Positions 327-27,809 of a DNA stretch of 32,558 nt are shown here, in pieces. Every line of letters begins with the position of its first letter. Position 1 is the stretch's first letter. The DNA lies in assembly GCA_021798135.1 (NCBI GenBank), contig JAJZYI010000002.1:1-32558 (forward strand). Direction: 5' to 3'. This stretch comes from Actinomycetes bacterium (GTDB lineage Bacteria > Actinomycetota > Acidimicrobiia > Acidimicrobiales > UBA8190). The position numbers and the translations under genes are program-made. Below the pieces are notes generated by a model, which did not search any database, had not been told where the DNA came from, and saw only the letters and a program-made list of their open reading frames with translations.

Positions 327-443
327 ATGTCGACGTCGAGCGAGCGCGTCGAGACGCGCGCGGCCGCAGGCGGCCGCCTGCGCACGCTCCCGGGCAGCAC
401 GGCGCCCACGGCGCCCGTGCGCGGCGTGCCGGCGGTCTCCTGA
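327..443 (+). CDS. Possible 38-aa small ORF between fliO-like gene and fliP
   Basis: ATG 327 preceded by GAGAGGA; MSTSSERVETRAAAGGRLRTLPGSTAPTAPVRGVPAVS; its TGA overlaps the fliP ATG (TGATG). Confidence 0.3.
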   Translation: MSTSSERVETRAAAGGRLRTLPGSTAPTAPVRGVPAVS

Positions 444-1126
444 TGGGCCTGCTCGTGGCGGCGGGGTCGTCGATCACGGTGAACCTCGGCCAGACCCTGG
501 CGAAGCCGTCGCAGAGCCTGATCGTCATCCTGGCGATCACCCTGCTGGCGGTGGCCCCGTCGCTCCTCGTCCTGCTCACGGGCTTCGTCCGGATCGTGGT
601 CGTCCTCAGCCTGACGCGCAACGCCCTGGGCCTGCAGACGACGCCGCCGAACCAGGTGCTCGCCGGCCTGGCGCTCTTCCTCAGCCTCTTCCTGATGATG
701 CCGGTGCTGAAGCAGGTCAACCAGGTGGCGGTGCAGCCCTACCTCCACGGCAAGGAGAGCGCGGTGGCCGCCTACCGCGAAGCCGAGGTCCCCCTGCGGT
801 CGTGGATGCTGAAGCAGACGGGCCCCAGCGAGATGGCCCTCACCGAGAGCGTCGACCACGAGCACCCGGCCAAGCCGCAGGACATCTCCATGGCGGCGCT
901 CGTCCCGGCCTTCCTGCTCTCGCAGCTCAAGAGCGCCTTCATCATCGGCTTCGTGGTGTTCGTGCCGTTCCTGATCATCGACCTGGTGGTGGCGTCGGCG
1001 CTCATGTCGATCGGGGTCGTCATGTTGCCACCGACCCTGGTGTCGCTGCCGTTCAAGCTGCTGCTGTTCGTGATGGTGAACGGCTGGGTCCTGATCACGC
1101 ACTCCCTGGTGGTGAGCTTCCGATGA
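443..1126 (+). CDS. fliP: Flagellar type III export membrane protein FliP
   Basis: Hydrophobic segments, FVRIVVVLSLTRNALGLQTTPPNQVLAGLALFLSLFLM and LVVASALMSIGVVMLPPTLVSLPFKLLLFVMVNGW are FliP signatures; followed by fliQ. Confidence 0.97.
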   Translation: MGLLVAAGSSITVNLGQTLAKPSQSLIVILAITLLAVAPSLLVLLTGFVRIVVVLSLTRNALGLQTTPPNQVLAGLALFLSLFLMMPVLKQVNQVAVQPYLHGKESAVAAYREAEVPLRSWMLKQTGPSEMALTESVDHEHPAKPQDISMAALVPAFLLSQLKSAFIIGFVVFVPFLIIDLVVASALMSIGVVMLPPTLVSLPFKLLLFVMVNGWVLITHSLVVSFR

Positions 1127-1395
1127 CCGACGTGGAGGTGACCCACCTGGCCACGCAGGCGCTCCTCATGGGCGCCAAGCTGGGCGCACCGATCCTGCTG
1201 GCGAGCCTGGTCGTCGGCCTGGTGGTCTCCCTGTTCCAGTCGGTGACCCAGCTGCAGGAGGTGACCCTCACCTTCGTGCCGAAGCTGGCGGCGATCGCCC
1301 TGGTGCTGCTGTTCTCCGGTCACTGGATGCTCTCCCAGTTCGTCGGCTACGTCCAGCAGCTCTTCGGCCACGTCACCACCCTGGTCGGGGGCTGA
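1123..1395 (+). CDS. fliQ: Flagellar export protein FliQ
   Basis: ATGA overlap with fliP; 90 aa with two TM segments; SLFQSVTQLQEVTLTFVPKL is the FliQ signature. Confidence 0.96.
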   Translation: MTDVEVTHLATQALLMGAKLGAPILLASLVVGLVVSLFQSVTQLQEVTLTFVPKLAAIALVLLFSGHWMLSQFVGYVQQLFGHVTTLVGG

Positions 1396-1407
1396 CGCCG
1401 TCCGGCG

Positions 1408-2175
1408 ATGCAGATCTCGCTCGACCCGACGTGGCTGATCGGCTTCCTCCTGGCCTTCGTGCGCTCGGCCGCATGGCTGGCGGTGGTGCCGCCGTTCTCC
1501 AACGTCCAGAGCCTGCCCCGGACGGTCCTCGTCGGCGTGGCGGGCGGCTTCGCCATCCTGTCCGCCCCCCTCGTCGCCGCCGCCGGCGTGCCCACCACCA
1601 CGCCGGCGCTCGTCGGGGCCATCGTGATGCAGGTCCTCGCCGGGGTGGCGCTCGGCTTCTCGGTCCGGATCCTGGTGGCCACCATCGGGTCCGCCGGTGC
1701 CATGGTCGACCTCCTCGGGGGTATCAGCGTGCCACCGTCGATGGACCCCCTGTCGGAGAGCCAGATGCCGCTGATCGGCCAGCTCTACGACCAGGTGGCG
1801 ATCGTCGCGCTGTTCGCCAGCAACGGGGAGCTGCTGCTCGTGCGCGGGTTCGAGTCGTCGTTCGCCACCAGCGGGGTCGTCGCCGGCAACGGGAGCCACC
1901 TGGCGAACGTGCTGGTGGCCGACCTCGCCACCTTCTTCACGGCATCGCTCGAGATCGCCGCCCCGATCCTGGCCGTGCTGTTCTGCACCCAGATCAGCCT
2001 GGCCCTGCTGGCGAAGGCCGCGCCACAGCTCAACGCCTGGTGGCTCGGCATGCCGCTGCAGATCCTGCTGTCGCTGCTCATGACCGCCTTCGCCATCCGC
2101 GTGGTGCCCGGCTACCTCACGCAGCTGGTCGACCGGGCGCTGCAGGACGCGCACCTGATCCTCGGGCTGGCGTGA
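1408..2175 (+). CDS. fliR: Flagellar export protein FliR
   Basis: 255 aa polytopic protein between fliQ and flhB; FCTQISLALLAKAAPQLNAWWLGMPLQILLSL is FliR-like. Confidence 0.94.
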   Translation: MQISLDPTWLIGFLLAFVRSAAWLAVVPPFSNVQSLPRTVLVGVAGGFAILSAPLVAAAGVPTTTPALVGAIVMQVLAGVALGFSVRILVATIGSAGAMVDLLGGISVPPSMDPLSESQMPLIGQLYDQVAIVALFASNGELLLVRGFESSFATSGVVAGNGSHLANVLVADLATFFTASLEIAAPILAVLFCTQISLALLAKAAPQLNAWWLGMPLQILLSLLMTAFAIRVVPGYLTQLVDRALQDAHLILGLA

Positions 2176-2182
2176 GGCGACC

Positions 2183-3286
2183 GTGGCGGGGAACCGTGAC
2201 GACCGCACCGAGAAGCCCACCGCCAAGCGCAAGCGCGACGCGCGCCGCGAGGGGCAGATCGCCAAGACGCCCGAGCTGGCGGGGTGGCTGTCGCTGCTGG
2301 CGGTGACGGAGGCGGCCCCCAGCCTGCTGCGCAGCGCCACCACCCGGATCGAGGGGGTGTTCGCCCAGGCGTCGCACGTGATGGCGAACCCGACGGCGCC
2401 CGGCGCGCTCGCCGTGTTCGAGTCCGGCCTCGGCCAGGCGGTCTTCGTCACGCTCCCGATCCTCGGCATGGTCGGCGCGCTGGCGCTGTTCGCCACGGTG
2501 AGCCAGGTCGGGTTCGTGGTGGCCACCAAGGCGGCGGCGCCCAAGCTGTCACGCCTGAACCCGATCGAGGGCCTGCGCAACCTGCTGTCGCCGGCGACGC
2601 TGTGGGCGCTGGCCAAGGAGATCCTCAAGCTGGCCGTCGTCGGCCTGCTCTCCTACCAGGTCATCAGCGGCATGGTGCGCGAGCTGGTGGACGCCCAGCC
2701 GACCGGCCTGGGCCCGGTCGTGACGTACGCGGCGGGCCGGATCCTCGCCATGGTGCGCGAGGTCGCCGGGGCGGGCCTGCTCATCGCCGTCGGCGACTAC
2801 GCGTACCAGCGGCACCGCATCGGCAAGAACATGAAGATGACCAAGCAGGAGGTGAAGGAGGAGGCCCGCAACCAGGAGGGCGACCCGCACCTGAAGGGGG
2901 CGATCAAGCGCAAGCAGCGCCAGCTGAGCCGCATGCGGATGATGGCGGCCGTCGCCGGCGCCGACGTGGTCGTCACCAACCCGACGCACTACGCCGTCGC
3001 CCTGCGCTACGACCCGGACGCGGGGCAGGCGCCGCGGGTGGTGGCGAAGGGCGCCGACGAGGTGGCGCGCCGGATCCGCGAGGAGGCGCACGAGCACGCG
3101 GTCCCCGTCGTCGAGGACCCGCCGCTGGCACGGGCCCTGTACGCGGCGTGCGACGTCGACGCGCTCGTGCCCCACGAGCTGTACGTGGCCGTGGCCCGGT
3201 TGCTGGCCTTCGTCTTCATGCTCCCGGCGGTCGTGCGCGCCTCGGGCAGCGTGCACCGCCGGCCCACTTCGGCGATGATCGCCTGA
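2183..3286 (+). CDS. flhB: Flagellar export switch protein FlhB
   Basis: N-terminal DRTEKPTAKRKRDARREGQIAKTPEL and C-terminal autocleavage motif NPTH (VVVTNPTHYAVALRYD). GTG start. Confidence 0.97.
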   Translation: MAGNRDDRTEKPTAKRKRDARREGQIAKTPELAGWLSLLAVTEAAPSLLRSATTRIEGVFAQASHVMANPTAPGALAVFESGLGQAVFVTLPILGMVGALALFATVSQVGFVVATKAAAPKLSRLNPIEGLRNLLSPATLWALAKEILKLAVVGLLSYQVISGMVRELVDAQPTGLGPVVTYAAGRILAMVREVAGAGLLIAVGDYAYQRHRIGKNMKMTKQEVKEEARNQEGDPHLKGAIKRKQRQLSRMRMMAAVAGADVVVTNPTHYAVALRYDPDAGQAPRVVAKGADEVARRIREEAHEHAVPVVEDPPLARALYAACDVDALVPHELYVAVARLLAFVFMLPAVVRASGSVHRRPTSAMIA

Positions 3287-15461: not shown

Positions 15462-16916
15462 ATGGCGACGGCGAGCTCCGGGGCGGCACGCGGCACGGCT
15501 GGCGGGCGGCGGCGCGCCCGACCGGTGGGAGCGGTCTTCGTCGACCTGGACCGCACGCTCCTGTCCGGGGCGAGCGGGCTCGTCCTGAGTGCCGCCCTTC
15601 GGGCCGAGGGGCTGCTCGACGGGCGGCCCCGCCTCCCCGGCGAGCGGCTGCTGTACGGCGTCTACGACGCCGTGGGCGAGAGCGTGCCGTTCATGGCGAT
15701 GGTCCGCGCCGCCGTGCGCTTCGTCCGAGGCTGGCCGGTCGAGTCGGTCCGGCGGGCCGGCGAGCTCGCCGCACCCGAGCTGCTGGACCTGCTCCAGCCG
15801 TACGCACCGGGTGTGCTGGCCGAGCATCGCGCCGCTGGCCGCCGCATCGTGCTGGCGACGACGTCGCCGGTCGACCTGGTGGAGCCGTTCGCCCGGCTGA
15901 TCGGGTTGGACGACGTCATCGCCACCCGCTACGAGCAGTCGGGCGGCCGGTACACCGGGCGGATCGAAGGCAGCTTCGTCTGGGGGGTGGGCAAGCTGGC
16001 CGCGGTGCGCGAGCGGGCTGCCACGCAGGGGTACGACCTGGCGGAGAGCCACGCGTACTCCGACAGTGTCTTCGACGTGCCGCTCCTCGGCAGCGTCGGC
16101 CACGCCCACGCCGTGCAGCCCGACCTCCGCCTCCGGCTGGTGGCCACGATGGCGCGCTGGCCGATCGAGCACTGGGACCGGCCGGCGGGCGTGCCCGGGC
16201 TGGCCGGGCTCGAGACCTACCACCTCCTCCGACCTTTCGTGCGTCCCGAGGCGTTCCCGTACGCGCGCTTCGACGTCCAAGGCGTCGAGAACGTGCCTGC
16301 TCGCGGGCCGGTGCTGCTGGCGTCGAACCACCGCAGCTACTTCGACGTGGTCGCCCTGGCGATCGTGGCGGCGCGGATCGGCCGGCCCGTCCGCTTCCTC
16401 GGCAAGCGCGAGCTGTTCGACGCCCCGGGGCTGGGCTGGCTGGCACGAGCGCTGGGCGGCATCCCCGTGGACCGCGACGACGACCCGGCCCGCGCCCTGG
16501 CCGCCGCACGCCAGGCGCTGCAGGCCGGCGAGCCGGTGATGATCATGCCGCAGGGCACCATCCCGCGTGGCAGGGCGTTCTTCGAGCCCGCGCTGCGCGG
16601 CAAGACGGGCTGCGCGCGGCTGGCAGCCATGACCGGCGCACCCGTGGTCCCGATCGGGCTCTGGGGCACCGAGGCGGTGTGGCCCCGAGCGGCGAAGCTG
16701 CCCACCGTCACGACGGTCGGAACCGGCCCGACGGTCCGGGTCCGGGTCGGCGACCCGCTCGACCTCGCTGCCGAGGCGGCGACGGACCCGGCGGCCGCGA
16801 CCGAGCGCCTGATGGCAGCGATCGTCGCGCTGCTCCCGCCCGAGGCGCTGGTGGAGCGGGAGCCGACCGCGGCGGAGATCGCACGGGCCACGCCGTCGAG
16901 CCGCCGCAGCCGATGA
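15462..16916 (+). CDS. HAD-IB phosphatase / 1-acyl-glycerol-3-phosphate acyltransferase (PlsC) fusion
   Basis: HAD motifs VDLDRTLLSG, GKLAAVRE, YSDSVFDVPLL; PlsC SNHRSYFD (HX4D) and MPQGTIPRG. Confidence 0.93.
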   Translation: MATASSGAARGTAGGRRRARPVGAVFVDLDRTLLSGASGLVLSAALRAEGLLDGRPRLPGERLLYGVYDAVGESVPFMAMVRAAVRFVRGWPVESVRRAGELAAPELLDLLQPYAPGVLAEHRAAGRRIVLATTSPVDLVEPFARLIGLDDVIATRYEQSGGRYTGRIEGSFVWGVGKLAAVRERAATQGYDLAESHAYSDSVFDVPLLGSVGHAHAVQPDLRLRLVATMARWPIEHWDRPAGVPGLAGLETYHLLRPFVRPEAFPYARFDVQGVENVPARGPVLLASNHRSYFDVVALAIVAARIGRPVRFLGKRELFDAPGLGWLARALGGIPVDRDDDPARALAAARQALQAGEPVMIMPQGTIPRGRAFFEPALRGKTGCARLAAMTGAPVVPIGLWGTEAVWPRAAKLPTVTTVGTGPTVRVRVGDPLDLAAEAATDPAAATERLMAAIVALLPPEALVEREPTAAEIARATPSSRRSR

Positions 16917-16944: not shown

Positions 16945-19086
16945 GTGAGCGCCGTTCGCGTCCGCCTGGCGGTGGCGGCAACCGTGGCCGTGGGGCGAGC
17001 GTCGCGGTGGCTGGGGCGGGGCAGCGGCTCGGTCGTCGGGGGAAGGGCGGGCCTGGCCATCGCTCCCGACCTCGTCCGCTCGCTCGCCGCCGACCGGATG
17101 GTCGCGCTGGTGAGCGCCACGAACGGCAAGACGACCACGACCCGGCTCCTCGTCACTGCCCTCGGTGGCACTGACCGGGTGGCGACGTCGGCGGCGGGCG
17201 CCAACCTGCCCGCCGGCATCGCCGCAGCGCTGGCGGGCGCCGATCCCGGCAGCCCCGCCGTCCTGGAGGTCGACGAGGGCTACCTGGCATCGGTGGCGGA
17301 CGCGGTGCGGCCGACGGTCGTCGCGCTGCTGAACCTGTCGCGTGACCAGCTCGACCGCGTCAGCGAGGTCCGCGCCATCGCGACGAGGTGGCGGGCTGCG
17401 CTCAGCCGCCTGCAAGGCACCACCGTCGTGGCCAACGCCGACGACCCCCTGGTCGCGTGGGCGGCGTCGTCGGCGCCGTCCGTGCGGTGGGTCGCCGCCG
17501 GACAGCTGTGGCGTGCCGATGCCACCGGCTGCCCGTCGTGCGGCGGCCGCATCCAGTTCGGCGGTGACGAGGGCGACGTGGGGTGGGCCTGCCCCGCGTG
17601 CGGGCTGCGCCGGCCGGAGCCGATGGCAGTGCTGCGGGGCACCACGCTGGGGCTCGCCGACGGGCGGCGGCTGCCCGTCGCGACCAGGCTCCCGGGCCGG
17701 TGCAACGTGGCGAACGCCGCCATGGCCGCAGTGGCGGCCGAGGTGATGGGCGTCGACGCGGCGGAGGCGCTCGCGTCGATGGCGGCCGTGGCCGAGGTAG
17801 AGGGCCGGTTCGCCGTGGCCCGCCATCGCTGCGGGGCGGACGGGCACGAGGTGGCGGCGCGGCTGCTGCTGGCGAAGAACCCAGCAGGGTGGGTGGAGCT
17901 GCTCGACCTCCTCGACGGCGGTCGCAGCGAGCCGCGGCCGGTGGTCGTCGGCATCAACGCGCGGATCGCCGACGGGCGCGACCCGTCGTGGCTGTGGGAC
18001 GTGGCGTTCGAGCGGCTGGAGGGTCGGCTCGTGGTCGCCACAGGCGAGCGGGCGTGGGATCTGGCCGTCCGCCTGCGCAGCGCCGGGGTCGACCATCGCG
18101 TCGAGCCCGACCAGGTGGCGGCGCTGCACGTGCCGGGGGTGGCCGAGGTCGACTACGCCGGCAACTACACGGCGTTCCAGGAGCTGCGGCGGCGGCTCGA
18201 CCGTGGGCGGGGAAGGCGGGATCGCTCCGGCGAGCAGCCGCGAGTGGTCGCCGGCGCCCCGGCCGCGGGATCGGGCGGGCGGGCACGTCCGTCGGGCAGC
18301 GAGCTGCGGGTCGTCGTGGTCCACCCGGAGCTGCTGGGGACGTACGGCGACGGCGGCAACGCGACGGTGCTCGCGGCACGGGCGGCCTGGCGGGGGCACG
18401 ACGTGGACGTGGTCCTGGCCGGCGCCGACGACCCGCTGCCCGCCTCGGGGGACGTGTACCTGCTCGGCGGGGGCGAGGACGGGCCGCAGGTGCAGGCCGC
18501 GGCCGTGCTGGCGCAGACCTCGCTGCGCCGGGCGGTCGACGGTGGCGCCGTCCTGCTCGCCGTCTGCGCCGGCTTCCAGGTCGTGGGGACCTCGTTCCCG
18601 GGGCCCGACGGCCTGCTGCGAGACGGCCTGGGCCTGCTCGACGTCGCGACGGTCAAGCGCAACGGACCGAGAGCCGTCGGCGAGCTGCTGGCGGAGCCGG
18701 TCGCAGCGGAGGAGGGCGCCGGCGAGCCGGTGGCCCGGGGCCTGGTGGCGTCGGGCGGTCTGCTCACTGGCTTCGAGAACCACAGCGGCGCCACCACGCT
18801 GGGACCGGCGGTGCGGCCGCTCGGCCACGTGACGCGCGGTGTCGGCAACGACGGCGGCGGCGGCGAGGGCGCGTGGTCCGGCCGGGTCGTCGGGACCTAC
18901 CTGCACGGTCCCGTCCTGGCGCGCAACCCGGCGCTCGCCGACGCGCTGCTGGCGATGGCCCTCGGAGCGGCGCCGGAGCCGATCGACGACGCGGAGGAAG
19001 CCGAGCTCCGTCGGGAGCGGATCGGTGCCGCGACCGCGGCCGACCGGGGGCGGCTCGGTCGGTTCCGGGTCCATCGACGCCACTGA
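16945..19086 (+). CDS. murT-gatD: MurT-GatD single-chain fusion: lipid II D-Glu amidation (Mur-ligase-like + glutamine amidotransferase)
   Basis: MurT part: SATNGKTTTTRLL P-loop, CPSCGG..CPACG Cys4 zinc ribbon, DUF1727 INARIADGRDPSWLWDVAFE; GatD part: LLGTYGDGGNATVL, VCAGFQVVG (Cys), GTYLHGPVLARNP (His). One uninterrupted frame. Confidence 0.93.
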   Translation: MSAVRVRLAVAATVAVGRASRWLGRGSGSVVGGRAGLAIAPDLVRSLAADRMVALVSATNGKTTTTRLLVTALGGTDRVATSAAGANLPAGIAAALAGADPGSPAVLEVDEGYLASVADAVRPTVVALLNLSRDQLDRVSEVRAIATRWRAALSRLQGTTVVANADDPLVAWAASSAPSVRWVAAGQLWRADATGCPSCGGRIQFGGDEGDVGWACPACGLRRPEPMAVLRGTTLGLADGRRLPVATRLPGRCNVANAAMAAVAAEVMGVDAAEALASMAAVAEVEGRFAVARHRCGADGHEVAARLLLAKNPAGWVELLDLLDGGRSEPRPVVVGINARIADGRDPSWLWDVAFERLEGRLVVATGERAWDLAVRLRSAGVDHRVEPDQVAALHVPGVAEVDYAGNYTAFQELRRRLDRGRGRRDRSGEQPRVVAGAPAAGSGGRARPSGSELRVVVVHPELLGTYGDGGNATVLAARAAWRGHDVDVVLAGADDPLPASGDVYLLGGGEDGPQVQAAAVLAQTSLRRAVDGGAVLLAVCAGFQVVGTSFPGPDGLLRDGLGLLDVATVKRNGPRAVGELLAEPVAAEEGAGEPVARGLVASGGLLTGFENHSGATTLGPAVRPLGHVTRGVGNDGGGGEGAWSGRVVGTYLHGPVLARNPALADALLAMALGAAPEPIDDAEEAELRRERIGAATAADRGRLGRFRVHRRH

Positions 19087-20596: not shown

Positions 20597-21649
20597 TCAG
20601 TCCCGGCGCACCGCCCAGCGGCGGGGGTCGCCGTCGCCGTGCGCCGACGAGCTGTCGTGCTCGCCGGTCCAGGCGGCGGGCGTCCCGCCGAGGGCCCAGG
20701 CCCGACGCCATGGAGAGGCGTCGGGGCCCCGGGCGTCCTGGACGGTCGTGCCGGCGGCGGCCTGGCGCCGGGCGGTCCACCAGTCGGTGCGGGACTCGGC
20801 CGCCAGGGTCGCCAGCGCCGTCTCGAGCCGCGCCGACAGGTGCCGGGCGTCCTCGCCGTCCTCGGGGTACAGCGGTGCGCCGACGACGACCGTGGTGCGG
20901 GCGCGCCGGACGCGCGTGCCGCCCTTGGGGAGGATCCGGTGGGTGCCGGCCAGGTGGACGGGGATGACCGGGCGACCGGTGCGCGCCGCCGGGAGGCTGG
21001 CGGCCCGGTGCAGCTCCTGCTGCCAGCCGTCGGGCGAACGGCCCCCTTCTGGGAAGATGAGGAGGCTCCAGCCGTCCTCGACGAGTGCCGTGGCTTCGTC
21101 GACCGACCGCCGGCTCACCCGGTTGCGCTCCAGCGGGATGGCCCCGAGGAGCCCGGCCCACAGATGGGCCTTCCACCGCCGGTCGAAGAAGTGGTCGGCG
21201 GCCGCCGCCACCACGGTGCGGTGGCGGATGCGGTCGGGCAGGACTGACAGCAGCAGCGGCGTGTCGAGGTGGCTGGTGTGGTTGGCGACGATCACGACGG
21301 GCGCTTCGGCCATGTCGAGCAGCTCGGCGCCGCGGACGAGCGGGGACGCCAGGAGGTGGACCGCCGGGCGGGTGAGGTTGTCGGTGACCATCGCGCGGGC
21401 GAGGCGGACGGGGTACCGGCGGGCCCAGGCCGTGTCGTACTCGTCGCCCAGCCCGGAGGACGGCACCGGCCTGGCGACGGTCCCGGGCCACGTCGGCGCG
21501 CCCCACGGGAACGGTGCCGGCCTGGTCGCCCTGCGCAGGCGGGCGCGCGCGAGGCGGCCGACCCCGGTGACGGCCGAGGCCGACCATGCGCGCCGTCCCG
21601 TCGGCTGCCGGCCGGCTCCGAGGTCTGGGTCGCGGCGTGCTGCGGTCAT
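20597..21649 (-). CDS. 1-acyl-sn-glycerol-3-phosphate acyltransferase family (PlsC)
   Basis: VANHTSHLD (HX4D), LLIFPEGGRS, VIPVHLAGTHRILPKG. Confidence 0.9.
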   Translation of the reverse strand: MTAARRDPDLGAGRQPTGRRAWSASAVTGVGRLARARLRRATRPAPFPWGAPTWPGTVARPVPSSGLGDEYDTAWARRYPVRLARAMVTDNLTRPAVHLLASPLVRGAELLDMAEAPVVIVANHTSHLDTPLLLSVLPDRIRHRTVVAAAADHFFDRRWKAHLWAGLLGAIPLERNRVSRRSVDEATALVEDGWSLLIFPEGGRSPDGWQQELHRAASLPAARTGRPVIPVHLAGTHRILPKGGTRVRRARTTVVVGAPLYPEDGEDARHLSARLETALATLAAESRTDWWTARRQAAAGTTVQDARGPDASPWRRAWALGGTPAAWTGEHDSSSAHGDGDPRRWAVRRD

Positions 21650-21659
21650 GCTCCTGCCC

Positions 21660-23246
21660 TCACCGGACGTCGGCGATCATGAGCGGCGGGGCGTGGAGGT
21701 GGGTGACCGACGGGCTCGGCCCGACCACGTCGGCAGCGATCTCGAGCGCGTCGGCCAGGGTGGACGCCGGGCGGAAGCCGAGCCGCCGGACCGTCGAGGG
21801 CTCCCCCCCGACGACCACGACGGCGCCGAGGTGGTCGAGGGCGTGGGCGCACCAGTACCACATGTAGAAGGGGTGGACGCCGTGGTAGGCGTGGCCGGTG
21901 CGGTAGAGGTGGACGTACCAGGGGTCGGTGGCGAACGCCTCTTCCCACTTGTGGATCTCGGCCGGATCGGTGGTCTCGGCCAGGATCTCCTCGTAGAAGT
22001 CGATGTAGCTGGGATGGTGGCCGGGGTGGAAGGCCTTGCGCGTGGGATGGCTCATGATGAGCACGCCGCCCTCGCGCACGAGCGGCCTGCCCCGGTACAG
22101 GTTGAAGAAGTACCCGAGGCCCAGGCAGGCGACGAGGATCGGGTTCATGATGGAGTTGACGTTGTACGGGCTGATGTACGGGAGCCCCATGGTGAGCACG
22201 TCGCTCTGGCCGTCGACCTCCACCAGCTGCTGGGCGTGGACGTGCCCGGTCGTGACGGCGTGGACGGCCTCGACCTCACCGGCCTGCACCGATGTCATGC
22301 GGTGGGGACCGGCGATGCCGTGCAGCACGCTCCGGGCCAGGCGGGCCGGCGTCCGCGCCAGGGCGGCGCTCGACGCCACGAAGGCGGCCCGGTCGCGGGC
22401 GCTCCACTCCCACTCCCTGCGCTGGAGGAACCGGAACTGCTCCGGGAAGGCGTCGTTGTTCAGGGTGGTCTCGATCTGGAAGACCCGGACGCCGCTGGCG
22501 GCGATGAGGCGTCCCATGCGCCAGTTGCTGCTGTGCAGCTCGGACCGGTGCTGGTCCATGAACGAGCGGCTGTGACGCATGGTGTGGGCATTGTGGTGGT
22601 GGCGCAGGCTGCGGTACGAGGCCAGGCCGGTGGCCACCGACTTGTGGCCGCCGTCCATGGCGACCAGGTTGATGTTGACGTAGACGAGCAGGTCGGACTC
22701 CGCCGCCCGGCGCGAGAGCTCCACGTCCTCGCCCTGGTCGGTCGTGCCGAGGTGGACCAGCTCGGACGGGTCCTCGGCATCGTGCTGGCGCAGCAGGCCG
22801 TGCGGGGCGAAGGCGTCGTAGATCCGGTCGCCGAGCGCGTGGCGCAGCTCCGCCTCGGTCATGCGGCGGTGCAGCGCCAGCGCGGCGATCAGCACCACGT
22901 CGTCGACGCCCGCCTCGGCCGCCAGGTCGAGCACCTGCTCGATGACGAGCTGCCGGTTGTCGGGCCGGCGCATGGGGGGCAGGGGCAGGGACACGTCGTC
23001 GAAGGCGATGGTGAGCCTCATGCCGGGCCGCAGCAGGCTGCGCAGCGGCTGGCTGTCGCCGAGGGGGTGGTCCAGGGCGTGGCGGACGGCGGCCACCGGG
23101 TCGGCGAGCGGCTCGATCGGCTCGGGCGCGTAGACCACCCGGCTGCCCTGCGGCAGGCGCTCCAGGCGGTAGCCCTCGCCGTGCCAGAACAGCGTCGGCG
23201 GGGTGGACCGGTCCACCTCCAGCACATAGCCGGGTCTGGGGCTCAT
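21660..23246 (-). CDS. LarA-like (lactate racemase N-terminal / DUF2088) protein, 528 aa
   Basis: FDDVSLPLPPM, ALHRRMTEAELRHALGDRIYD, GTTDQGEDVELSR, MDGGHKSVATGLASYRSLRHHHNAHT. Confidence 0.8.
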   Translation of the reverse strand: MSPRPGYVLEVDRSTPPTLFWHGEGYRLERLPQGSRVVYAPEPIEPLADPVAAVRHALDHPLGDSQPLRSLLRPGMRLTIAFDDVSLPLPPMRRPDNRQLVIEQVLDLAAEAGVDDVVLIAALALHRRMTEAELRHALGDRIYDAFAPHGLLRQHDAEDPSELVHLGTTDQGEDVELSRRAAESDLLVYVNINLVAMDGGHKSVATGLASYRSLRHHHNAHTMRHSRSFMDQHRSELHSSNWRMGRLIAASGVRVFQIETTLNNDAFPEQFRFLQRREWEWSARDRAAFVASSAALARTPARLARSVLHGIAGPHRMTSVQAGEVEAVHAVTTGHVHAQQLVEVDGQSDVLTMGLPYISPYNVNSIMNPILVACLGLGYFFNLYRGRPLVREGGVLIMSHPTRKAFHPGHHPSYIDFYEEILAETTDPAEIHKWEEAFATDPWYVHLYRTGHAYHGVHPFYMWYWCAHALDHLGAVVVVGGEPSTVRRLGFRPASTLADALEIAADVVGPSPSVTHLHAPPLMIADVR

Positions 23247-24562
23247 GGGGTGCGTCCTTTCCGGGTTCCGGACCTGCGCGTGCCGCCGGCACCCGAGCGG
23301 CCGCCAGCGGGCCGGGGCGCGCCGCTGGCGACGGTCCGGGGAGCCCGCTCGTCCGGCGGCACCTGGCGTGGCGGCCGCTGACCGGGCTCGAACACGATCT
23401 TCACGGCTCCGCGTCGACCGGCGGCACCGGCGTGGGCGAGCGCCTCGGCGTAGCGCTCCAGGGGGTAGCGGGCGGACACCAGTCGGCCGAGCCCGGCGGC
23501 GGCGACGACGTCGAAGGCGAGGTCGAACGTGCGGCGGCCGCCGGCCTCCAGTCCGTAGGCGTAGGTCCCGGCCAGGGTGACCTGGCGGTGCCACAGGGGA
23601 GCCAGGTCGACGTGCAGCCGACCGGGCATGCCGACGAGCACCACCCGGCCGCGGGGCCTGACCATGGCGAGGCTGGCGGCGAGCGACGCACTGCTGCCGA
23701 CGCAGTCGACGACGACGTCGGCACCGGCGGTGACCTGGCCGGCCAGCCGCAGCGAGCGTGTGGCGCGGCGCACCGACCGGTCGAGCTGGTCCGGCTCGAC
23801 CGCCCGGTCGGCACCGAGCTCGAGGGCGAGGGACCGCTGGTGCGGGTAGCGCGCGCCGACGAGCAGCTGGCCCGGGTCGGACAGCCGGCGGAGGGCGGCG
23901 ACGGTGGCGAGCCCGAGCGTGCCGGCGCCGAGCACCGCGACGCATGCCCCATCGGCCACCTCGGCGGCCAGCGCGCCGTGCACCGCGCACGCGGTGGGCT
24001 CGACCATCACCGCGTCCTCGTCGCTCAGGCCGTCGGGCACGGCGTGGAGCTGGCTGGCGTGGGCGACCAGGCCGGCCGCCGACCAGCCGCCCCCCGTGTC
24101 GGCGCAGTAGCCGATCTGCAGGCCCGGCGAGAGGTGGCCGACGGCAAGGTGCTGGCAGGCGCCGGTGTCGCCCGCGGCACAGGCGGGGCACGGCGGCTCC
24201 ACGCCTCGCGGCACGCAGCCGATCACGGGCTCGATCACGACGCGGCTGCCGGCGGCCAGCGGCGATCCGTCGGGCGGCTGCTCGAGCGTGCCGACCACCT
24301 CGTGGCCGGGCACGAAGGGGAAGCTGACCATCTCCTCGAAGTACCGCGAGCTGGCCCCGTCCACGGTGGCCAGGTCCGAGCCGCAGATCCCGGCCAGCAG
24401 GGGGCGGACACGACCCCACGCCGGTCCCGGCAGGTCCGGCTGGTCGGCGTCGACCATGCGCAGCGGCCCGGCCGCGGCGCCGTGCCCGCTGCCCCGGAGC
24501 GTGGCGGCGACGCGGGCGGCGGCGAAGCGGGCCACGGCCCGCTCGAACACCAGTGCCTTCAT
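23243..24562 (-). CDS. Zinc-dependent alcohol dehydrogenase (MDR superfamily)
   Basis: GICGSDL, GHEVVGTLE, structural-Zn-like CPACAAGDTGACQH, VLGAGTLGLATVAAL cofactor motif; ATGA overlap with the LarA-like gene. Confidence 0.92.
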   Translation of the reverse strand: MKALVFERAVARFAAARVAATLRGSGHGAAAGPLRMVDADQPDLPGPAWGRVRPLLAGICGSDLATVDGASSRYFEEMVSFPFVPGHEVVGTLEQPPDGSPLAAGSRVVIEPVIGCVPRGVEPPCPACAAGDTGACQHLAVGHLSPGLQIGYCADTGGGWSAAGLVAHASQLHAVPDGLSDEDAVMVEPTACAVHGALAAEVADGACVAVLGAGTLGLATVAALRRLSDPGQLLVGARYPHQRSLALELGADRAVEPDQLDRSVRRATRSLRLAGQVTAGADVVVDCVGSSASLAASLAMVRPRGRVVLVGMPGRLHVDLAPLWHRQVTLAGTYAYGLEAGGRRTFDLAFDVVAAAGLGRLVSARYPLERYAEALAHAGAAGRRGAVKIVFEPGQRPPRQVPPDERAPRTVASGAPRPAGGRSGAGGTRRSGTRKGRTP

Positions 24563-27063
24563 CGGCTCTCCCGCAGGGCGTGGTCGATGCGGGCCCACCA
24601 TCGCGACGCGGCCCCGTCGAGCGGGCCCATCGGCAGCGGCGGGCGGGTGGCGGCCCGGTCCCAGTGCTCCACGTGCCAGCCGCGGCGCCGGGCGATGGCC
24701 GCCAGCTTGGTCTCGGGGTTGACGGCCACGGGGAAGCCCACGCACTCGAGCAGGGGCAGGTCGGACGCCGAGTCGGCGTAGGCGACACCCTCGCCGAGGT
24801 CGAGGCCCTCGGCCTCGGCGTACTCGGCCAGCACCAGCGCCCGCGCCTCGCCGGTGGGCGGCAGGCGCACGAGCCGCCCGTCCACGCGGCCCTCGGCGTC
24901 GACACCGAGCTCGGCGCAGACCACCTCGTCGAACAGCGGGCGCAGCCCCTCGACGACGAAGTCGAGCGCGCCGGTGATGAGGACGGTCCGGTGCCCGAGG
25001 GCCCGGTGGCGCCGTACCCGGGCGATGCCGGCCGGGAACGACTTGGCCAGCAGCAGGTTGTGGAACAGCTCCAGGCCGTCGCGGCGGAGCACGTCGGCCG
25101 GGGCGCCGTCGTAGCGGCGGTAGAAGCCGCGGAGGAAGTCGCCGCGGTCGCGCCGGTCGACGGCGGCCAGCCCGGGCGCGGCGGCCAGGATCCGTGCCGC
25201 GAAGGCGGCGCGCTCGCCGGCGGGGAGGTGGCGCGTGGCGAGCCACGTGTACGACTCCACGACGTTGGACGCCACCAGCGTGTTCTCGAGGTCGAAGGCG
25301 GCGAGGTGGCGATCGGGCGCCAGGATGGCGCGCCGGGCCCGGTCCCCGCGGTTGGCCATCACCGACTTCCCCGGCGTGGTCCGGACCCGGGCGTGCTGCA
25401 CCACCGACGGCAGGTGGATGTCGTGGACGTAGGCGTCCCAGTCGACGACGCCGGGATCGAAGCAGAACGCCCGCTGGTCCTCGGGCGACAGGCGCTCCCA
25501 GAGCGCGAGCAGCCGGTCGACCCGGAAGAGGGCTTCGGTCTCGGTGTACGCGCCGTACAGCTCCACGTAGGAGCGGGCCCGTTCCGCCTGCATCCGGCGC
25601 TCCTCCACGCGGCCGGCGAGCTCGGCCCGCTCCCCGCGCAGCGGCAGGCTGGTGAGGAGCCGCTCGGCCAGCTTCAGCACGTCGGTGGCCCGCTGCAGCT
25701 GCCGCTGGACGCGTCCGTGCCCGGGGAACGACCACTCGGGCACCACGATCGGCTGGCCGTCGCCGTCGTAGAGCGGATGGTCGGTGAACCAGCGCTGGAC
25801 CAGGTCGACGAGCTGGCCGTAGCGCAGCGGGTTGCGCACCCCCGACGCGACCTGGACCACGGACGGTCCCGCAGGGTCGGGCCCGTCCGCGGCCACGGCC
25901 ACGATGGCGGCGACCACCAGGTCGACCGGGATGACGTCGATCACGCCCTCGGGGAGGCCGGGGAACTCGCGCAGCAGGCCGCGGGCGTACGACACGATGA
26001 TGGGCTCGGCCATCCGGAAGCCCCGGATCCAGCCGGGCTGCGGCTCGGCCAGCGCCGACTCGATGATCGACGGGCGGACGACCGTGATGGGGAGGTCGCC
26101 GTGCTCGCCGACCAGCAGCCGCTCGCCGAGCGCCTTGGTGAAGGCGTAGGCGTCCGGCCAGCCCAGCGCCTGGGCCCTGGCCCGGCCGGCCTCGACGAGC
26201 TCGGCGCGGACCCAGTCGTCGCGCAGGCGCTCGGCGCGCTCGGCCAGCAGGTGGACGCCCGCGGCGCCGAGCTCTCGCCGTGCCGCGGCGGTGAAGCCGC
26301 CGAGCCGTTCGGGTCGCCGGGACGCCGCCTCGAGGTCGTCGCGCAGCCGCCGGACGGCAGTGACCTCGGCGGCGATGTCCACCTCGGTGGTGACCGTGGT
26401 GTGGGTGCGGGCCCGGGCTCCGGAGGCCATGGCCGCGGTGGCCAGCGTCTCGGTGGCGTGCCCCTGGTGGGTGCCGGCCACGTAGGCGGTCGACACCGAG
26501 ACCAGGTGGGTGGGCGGCGCTCCGGGGCGCAGCTCGGCCCGCAGGTCAGCGGCGGCGGCGATCGCCGCGCCGACGCGGGCCGGGCCGAGCAGGTTCACCT
26601 CGACGGCGGCGTCGAAGGCGGCGTCGAAGGCGACGGTGGCGGCCGAGTGCACCACGATGTCGGCCGCGGCGAGGGCGCCGCGCCCGGCGTCGTCGAGCCC
26701 GAGGCCGTCGCGGCCCACGTCCCCGGCCACCGCGGCGAACCGGCCGGCCACCTCGCCGTCGAACCGGTCGCCCAGCTCGTGGCGGAGGCGGGCGAAGCAG
26801 TCGTTGCCCAGGATCTCGCGCCGGGCGCGGGCCGCGGCGTCGAGGCGCCGGGTGGGGCGCACCAGGACGGTCACGTGGCAGCCGGGGACGCAGCGGAGCA
26901 GGCGCTCCACCAGGGCGGTCCCGAGGAACCCGGTGGCGCCGGTGACGAAGAGCCGCTGGCCGGCGAGCTGCCCCGCGATCCCGGGCCCGGTGGTGGCGCC
27001 GGCCGTCGACCTGGTGCGAGACTTCGTCGGCCCGGGGCGGCTCGGCGGGGTGGCCTGTGGCAC
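24559..27063 (-). CDS. Fatty acyl-CoA reductase (NAD-binding_4/Male-sterility type) fused to C-terminal HAD-IB-like domain
   Basis: FVTGATGFLGTALVERLL, YAFTKALGE (YxxxK); C-terminal FDLENTLVASN, YADSASDLPLL; ATGA overlap with ADH. GTG start. Confidence 0.9.
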   Translation of the reverse strand: MPQATPPSRPGPTKSRTRSTAGATTGPGIAGQLAGQRLFVTGATGFLGTALVERLLRCVPGCHVTVLVRPTRRLDAAARARREILGNDCFARLRHELGDRFDGEVAGRFAAVAGDVGRDGLGLDDAGRGALAAADIVVHSAATVAFDAAFDAAVEVNLLGPARVGAAIAAAADLRAELRPGAPPTHLVSVSTAYVAGTHQGHATETLATAAMASGARARTHTTVTTEVDIAAEVTAVRRLRDDLEAASRRPERLGGFTAAARRELGAAGVHLLAERAERLRDDWVRAELVEAGRARAQALGWPDAYAFTKALGERLLVGEHGDLPITVVRPSIIESALAEPQPGWIRGFRMAEPIIVSYARGLLREFPGLPEGVIDVIPVDLVVAAIVAVAADGPDPAGPSVVQVASGVRNPLRYGQLVDLVQRWFTDHPLYDGDGQPIVVPEWSFPGHGRVQRQLQRATDVLKLAERLLTSLPLRGERAELAGRVEERRMQAERARSYVELYGAYTETEALFRVDRLLALWERLSPEDQRAFCFDPGVVDWDAYVHDIHLPSVVQHARVRTTPGKSVMANRGDRARRAILAPDRHLAAFDLENTLVASNVVESYTWLATRHLPAGERAAFAARILAAAPGLAAVDRRDRGDFLRGFYRRYDGAPADVLRRDGLELFHNLLLAKSFPAGIARVRRHRALGHRTVLITGALDFVVEGLRPLFDEVVCAELGVDAEGRVDGRLVRLPPTGEARALVLAEYAEAEGLDLGEGVAYADSASDLPLLECVGFPVAVNPETKLAAIARRRGWHVEHWDRAATRPPLPMGPLDGAASRWWARIDHALRESR

Positions 27064-27072
27064 CCGCCTTGT

Positions 27073-27086
27073 CTACCATGTGGTAG
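27073..27086. promoter_or_regulatory. Palindrome CTACCATGTGGTAG between divergent tetR and FAR genes (candidate TetR operator)
   Basis: CTACCA-TG-TGGTAG, perfect 6-bp arms, inside the 23-bp intergenic region. Confidence 0.6.
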
Positions 27087-27809
27087 GTGGCCGGGTCGAA
27101 CACGAAGGCGGGCACGGGCAACGGCCACGGCCCCGGCGACCATGGCCGTGGCAGCGGCGGCCCCGGCGACGCCGGCCCTGGCGGCGGCAAGGGCGGCAAC
27201 GGCGGCGGGCCGAAGCAGCGCACGCCCGACCGCATCCTCGCTGCCGCCCTGGCGTCGTTCGCCGAGCGCGGGTACGAGGGGACGTCGCTCGACGCCCTGG
27301 CCGAGGGCCTGGGGCTGCGCAAGCAGTCGATCCTGTACTGGTTCCCCTCCAAGGAGGCCCTGCTCCTGGCCGTGATCGACGGGGCGGCCGCCGACCTGGC
27401 GGACGCGCTCCAGGCGGCCCTCGGCCGCGCCGGCGACGGGTGGTCCCGGGTGGAGGCCGTGGTCCGCTCGGTGTTCCGCCTGGGAGCGGCCCGCCCGGAG
27501 CTGCTTGGCCTGGTGCGCGAGGCGGCCCGCCTGGGCCCGCCCGCATCCACCCGGCTGGTCGGCGCTCTCGGGCCCCTGGTGGACCGGGCCTCGGCGTTCC
27601 TGGAGGCCGAGATGGGGGCCGGCCACATGCGCCGGCACGAGCCGCGCCTGCTGCTGCTGGCGATCTACTCCACCGTGGTGGGCATGATCACCGAGGTGGA
27701 CGTGCTCCGGGCCCTCGGCGAGGAGCCAGATGCCCGCTCCCTGGTGCGCCGCCGCCAGGAGATCCTGCGGCTGCTGCGCAGCGCCCTGGTGCCCGAGCCG
27801 GCCGCCTAG
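27087..27809 (+). CDS. TetR family transcriptional regulator
   Basis: TPDRILAAALASFAERGYEGTSLDALAEGLGLRKQSILYWFPSKEALLLAVID HTH; Gly-rich N-terminal extension. GTG start. Confidence 0.93.
   Translation: MAGSNTKAGTGNGHGPGDHGRGSGGPGDAGPGGGKGGNGGGPKQRTPDRILAAALASFAERGYEGTSLDALAEGLGLRKQSILYWFPSKEALLLAVIDGAAADLADALQAALGRAGDGWSRVEAVVRSVFRLGAARPELLGLVREAARLGPPASTRLVGALGPLVDRASAFLEAEMGAGHMRRHEPRLLLLAIYSTVVGMITEVDVLRALGEEPDARSLVRRRQEILRLLRSALVPEPAA

Follow-up and report, generated by a model that had tools for sequence, protein, structure and literature searches.

The window, i.e. the whole stretch of 32,558 nucleotides analysed here, is part of contig C66 of a 3.27-Mb genome with a completeness of 83%, whose nearest named relatives are for the most part Acidimicrobiales MAGs. 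It contains four minus-strand genes and a divergently oriented tetR gene with the following features:

20597–21649, minus strand, PlsC-like acyltransferase (PF01553, 64.6 bits; HxxxxD and PEG motifs intact)
21660–23246, minus strand, LarA-like protein, a LarAH14/15/16 member retaining one catalytic histidine (Lar_N; NF052592, 885 bits; fold nearest to 9q3k)
23243–24562, minus strand, MDR-type zinc alcohol dehydrogenase (Zn-ADH; PF08240 ADH_N and PF00107 ADH_zinc_N)
24559–27063, minus strand, FAR-HAD with a predicted GTG start (PF07993, 182 bits; PF03015; PF12710; PDB match to the fatty acyl-CoA reductase 7eoz, E=1e-62), by profile match a fusion of NAD_binding_4, Sterile and C-terminal HAD-IB domains
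24745–25302, minus strand, HAD domain of FAR-HAD (profile and motif check)
27073–27086, no strand assigned, candidate TetR operator, palindrome CTACCATGTGGTAG, overlapping the start region of FAR and tetR
27087–27809, plus strand, TetR-family regulator, divergent from the operon (PF00440 TetR_N, 51.9 bits)

The ORF coordinates confirm the positions given in the initial annotation for the four genes and the divergent tetR, the ATGA overlaps at 24559–24562 and 23243–23246 and the short gap ahead of PlsC, the LarA–PlsC spacing being 10 nt. The domain content was likewise recovered as proposed, namely a FAR with C-terminal HAD, an MDR zinc ADH, a Lar_N protein, PlsC and TetR. The predicted FAR and tetR starts lie 23 nt apart, with an approximate start codon choice for both.

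Besides the NAD_binding_4 and Sterile domains, FAR has intact GxxGxxG and YxxxK motifs (GxxGFLG, YxxTK). The zinc ligands of Zn-ADH are intact as well; judged from its sequence the enzyme is closest to polyol/ketose dehydrogenases, and its best PDB matches include sorbitol dehydrogenase (1pl6) and ketose reductase (1e3j). In HAD phosphatases motif I is usually DxD. The HAD domain of FAR-HAD has DxE instead (E in 67 and D in 6 sequences), and its phosphatase activity is therefore uncertain. FAR-HAD and PlsC, together with a PlsY gene adjoining FAR in one relative (L039), point to a lipid context.

LarA-like proteins scoring over the NF052592 cut-off were detected in 87 of the 398 actinobacterial genomes sampled across the phylum, i.e. 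in about a fifth, and within the order in 21 of 30. As far as the short flanks of the first 30 loci extend, FAR, ADH and PlsC are again the neighbours, in unchanged order. The order FAR-ADH-LarA-PlsC was found in 80 of 99 wider loci, 43 of these with a divergent TetR, while in two more of the 99 TetR is located downstream; 39 further loci agree with this arrangement. Exceptions among the 99 are mainly due to contig ends, to one family without adjacent PlsC and to five distant LarA homologues (24–42% identity) without operon partners. The neighbourhood-conservation check thus clearly upheld the grouping of the four genes: their order and orientation are the same in almost all intact relatives, except for one family where PlsC is not adjacent. 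In family f26 the FAR-ADH-LarA triad is kept as a rule, and in four f26 genomes with an isolated LarA a FAR-HAD is found a few kilobases off or elsewhere in the genome. In other families tetR is co-directional and positioned downstream of plsC. Overlaps of four nucleotides are the commonest junction (FAR-ADH 47/67, ADH-LarA 34/67), and in the 69 loci with four full-length genes the pairwise-distance correlations amount to 0.78–0.84. Full-length FAR-HAD is present in 11 of 11 LarAH+ genomes and in none of 28 LarAH− genomes (Fisher p=6e-10, a value which, like the other p-values given here, overstates certainty since the sampled genomes are related and not independent); the breadth across more than ten families holds independently of these p-values. 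When other conserved partners were sought across several families, only the core genes recurred, plus LarE in three, and a plasmid search yielded no plasmid copies of the LarA-like family. These data support a single co-inherited functional unit, and the operon is tightly conserved in many soil and aquatic actinobacteria.

A chance adjacency of the four genes was rejected on the basis of the conserved gene order and the strict co-occurrence of LarA and FAR. The latter also argues against an operon for wax-ester or fatty-alcohol storage with a LarA-like gene of unrelated function. FAR would certainly supply the fatty alcohol required for wax esters, but WS/DGAT is distributed independently of the operon (20/31 LarAH+ versus 12/17 LarAH− genomes, p=0.76), which leaves an obligate wax-ester role unsupported and makes the storage function very improbable. 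The AGPAT-HAD/WS-DGAT storage clusters of Actinomycetota (PMC10351704) also possess HAD and PlsC domains and occur in the same phylum; however, their domains are combined differently, the described arrangement includes neither FAR nor LarA, and the operon of the window, unlike these clusters, shows no association with WS/DGAT.

Three LarA homologues (L043, L044 and L045) are ca. 40% identical to that of the window and score 420–540 bits, below the family cut-off. They have no FAR, ADH or PlsC neighbours and therefore probably differ from it in function.

The LarA-like gene is also linked to the genes for the nickel-pincer (NPN) cofactor. Of 43 LarAH+ genomes, 41 contain a LarC scoring above its cut-off; within the order and class the ratio is 19/21 LarAH+ versus 0/17 LarAH− genomes (p=1e-8), LarB follows the same pattern, and LarE is present in 30/33 versus 0/17 genomes. 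In one relative (L048 in G291) larE, larB and larC are located directly beyond plsC, larE in opposite orientation, and in two others (G227 and G052) the three genes lie just beyond plsC by their coordinates. Of the 19 genomes of the order that carry LarC, 12 encode no Lar_N protein besides the LarA-like one, and the NPN genes have therefore no other visible client there. Correspondingly, no Lar_N protein was found in any of the 17 LarAH− genomes. The genome of the window harbors larB and larC on contig C31 and, at 83% completeness, no LarE over the cut-off. Altogether, the gene linkage supports an NPN-dependent LarA-like protein that presumably is occupied by the cofactor. Alternatively, the protein might dispense with NPN and have a binding or structural role, as two genomes (L041 in G265 and L042 in G296) carry an intact LarA-like gene with the invariant residues kept and no detectable larB, larC or larE; genuine loss, salvage or an assembly gap may account for this absence. 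The strength of the larBCE linkage, the adjacency in some lineages and the genomes with the LarA-like protein as sole LarA speak against an NPN-free role, which we regard as rather improbable. In G265 FAR is directly followed by LarA, ADH being missing between them. The genome of the window encodes a second LarA (L002; G000:C315:12816-13271), which is in frame with a gluconokinase and approaches NF052594, a family of putative hexonate epimerases, with a score of 440 bits (cut-off 500).

The LarA-like protein matches NF052592 with 885.3 bits (cut-off 740) over residues 8–528 of 528 and is by this score a strong LarAH14/15/16 member, i.e. of the same family as Frankia LarAH14 (PMC7583248). Alignment with the malate racemase Mar2 identifies D84 as the conserved aspartate, H126 as the first catalytic histidine, K202 as the NPN lysine and H218 as the nickel histidine, all of them invariant in 128 sequences; K202, H218 and D84 match the superfamily residues Lys184 (NPN-binding), His200 (Ni-ligand) and Asp72 of LarA. 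From the H108/H174 pair of LarA only the first member is kept (H126), while the region of H174 is a gap resulting from a deleted loop, and the catalytic H171 and the specificity loop residues Y172 and K173 of Mar2 equally fall into an alignment gap. The position of Arg75 (R74 in Mar2), which in LarA contacts the NPN phosphate and the substrate carboxylate, is occupied by L87, and by Leu or Ile in 127 of the 128 sequences. The C-terminal half does not align by sequence to canonical LarA, Lys298 included. An AlphaFold2 model (pLDDT 80, pTM 0.84) resembles the single-histidine LarA structures 9q3k and 9q3j most closely, more so than canonical LarA. These solved structures (9q2u/9q3k and 9q3j; PMC12611868), from Streptococcus plurextorum and Blautia wexlerae, share with the window protein one catalytic histidine, an alignable C-terminal His-rich stretch and ca. 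20–23% identity in the structural alignment. However, their second histidine is replaced by Asn, whereas in the window protein the loop is deleted, and their genes have sugar-gene neighbours instead of lipid-gene neighbours.

The initial annotation had assigned to the LarA-like enzyme the setting of a hydroxy stereocentre. The deletion of the H174 loop and the missing Arg75 make such a role in 2-hydroxyacid chemistry unlikely. The second catalytic histidine is reported to be missing in LarAH groups 14/15 as well, with no difference at family level, and enzymes of this kind may not catalyse inversion of a stereocentre (PMC12611868 and PMC7583248); according to the latter, none of seven assays showed activity of Frankia LarAH14. 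Nevertheless, the protein could racemise or epimerise a 2-hydroxyacyl group, possibly in one direction, which is subsequently reduced and built into a lipid. Retention of the cofactor-binding residues and of H126, the NCBIfam label of NF052592 as hydroxyacid isomerase and a one-base racemase acting one way, as proposed for a related single-histidine subfamily (PMC12611868), are in line with this possibility, but the residue losses in nearly all relatives and the inactive Frankia enzyme render it doubtful. As the carboxylate-binding arginine is lost, we infer that the substrate carries no carboxylate.

What the initial annotation had envisaged as a lipid pathway thus persists as a co-inherited, lipid-like unit, yet without the stereocentre-setting function of the LarA-like protein. 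We slightly favour a lipid pathway in which one step is NPN-dependent without being a racemase reaction. In such a scenario FAR-HAD would convert a long-chain acyl thioester into an aldehyde or alcohol, and LarB, LarC and LarE would make the NPN carried by the LarA-like protein. The latter might then transfer a hydride on a carboxylate-free alcohol or carbonyl intermediate (lipid or polyol) in an intramolecular or ping-pong manner, e.g. from a hydroxyaldehyde to a hydroxyketone, instead of inverting a 2-hydroxyacid. The polyol-type Zn-ADH would reduce to, or oxidize, a secondary alcohol and PlsC would acylate the product, presumably a membrane or surface lipid. Both the reaction type and the order of these steps are tentative. 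The use of NPN in LarAH14 for hydride-shift isomerisation or transhydrogenation of a carboxylate-free lipid intermediate, rather than for racemisation or epimerisation, is a serious possibility, albeit short of an even chance. One fully specified sequence, from a 2-hydroxyaldehyde (FAR) via a 1-hydroxy-2-ketone (LarA-like) and a 1,2-diol (ADH) to the acylated product (PlsC), is a long shot. The two genomes without detectable larBCE, the family without adjacent plsC and the DxE motif of HAD count against the preferred non-racemase step, as does the proposed one-way single-base racemase (PMC12611868).

A different lipid product is conceivable. The FAR-derived alcohol might enter 1-O-alkyl glycerolipids, with PlsC acylating the sn-2 position and the LarA-like protein and ADH handling the glycerol/ketone side. 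Alkyl ethers are abundant in Rubrobacter, and the PlsY gene beside FAR in L039 would suit such a route. A precedent for uniting FAR and PlsC-like functions is ElbD of Myxococcus; this, however, is a single multidomain protein with FadD and ACP, described with neither a LarA-like nor a Zn-ADH partner (PMC11948995). No ElbD-type FadD-ACP-FAR-PlsC fusion occurs in the operon or among its conserved neighbours, an ether-bond-forming enzyme is absent from these neighbours, and lipid data on the host organisms were not found in the literature searched. On balance, ether lipids appear to be an unlikely product.

The palindrome CTACCANNTGGTAG is present in about one copy per genome at the FAR/tetR gap. 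Among 42 relatives whose tetR is divergent, 31 carry this motif or its core TACCATATGGTA, in some cases with 10-bp arms. In a search of 27 genomes, exactly one site was detected in each of 13, against a chance expectation of ca. 0.03 per genome; 12 of the 13 sites are located at the FAR/tetR gap and one (in G221) is flanked by neither gene. The motif is absent from six genomes without the operon. CTACCANNTGGTAG is therefore a likely single-operon TetR operator by its distribution, and a TetR dedicated to this operon offers the simplest reading; its binding to CTACCANNTGGTAG would repress this operon, apparently only this one. That TetR also controls genes outside the operon, e.g. larBC, was rejected because of the maximum of one site per genome.

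The operon had been considered undescribed. This applies to the pathway, for which no characterised counterpart was found in the literature searched, and not to the LarA protein, whose family NF052592 is already named and whose missing histidine is published. Descriptions of the operon, its larBCE linkage or its operator were not encountered in the main text of this literature. New are the co-occurrence of larB, larC and larE with the LarA-like gene, their position next to the operon in some lineages and the frequent lack of any other LarA. The operon probably belongs to a so far undescribed lipid pathway and may lead to a lipid of the membrane or surface that has gone unrecognised. By supplying partner genes, a regulator, a probable operator and a link to lipids, it brings the long-standing question of what the single-histidine LarA enzymes do within experimental reach. 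Wherever activity of an NPN enzyme is demonstrated in the literature searched, it is the racemisation or epimerisation of 2-hydroxyacids; a non-racemase reaction of LarAH14, if true, would represent new NPN chemistry in a widespread, undescribed actinobacterial lipid pathway.

Outside the operon, the window encodes at 15462–16913 (plus strand), ca. 4 kb away, a fusion of HAD-IB with a PlsC acyltransferase that scores above the TIGR01490 cut-off, similar to the AGPAT-HAD proteins of actinobacterial storage-lipid clusters. An apparent MurT-GatD type fusion in one frame, composed of a Mur ligase middle domain, a MurT C-terminal domain and a CobB/CobQ-like glutamine amidotransferase, is located at 16945–19083 (plus strand), and three genes at 443–3286 (plus strand), judged by eye, resemble the flagellar export genes fliP, fliR and flhB.
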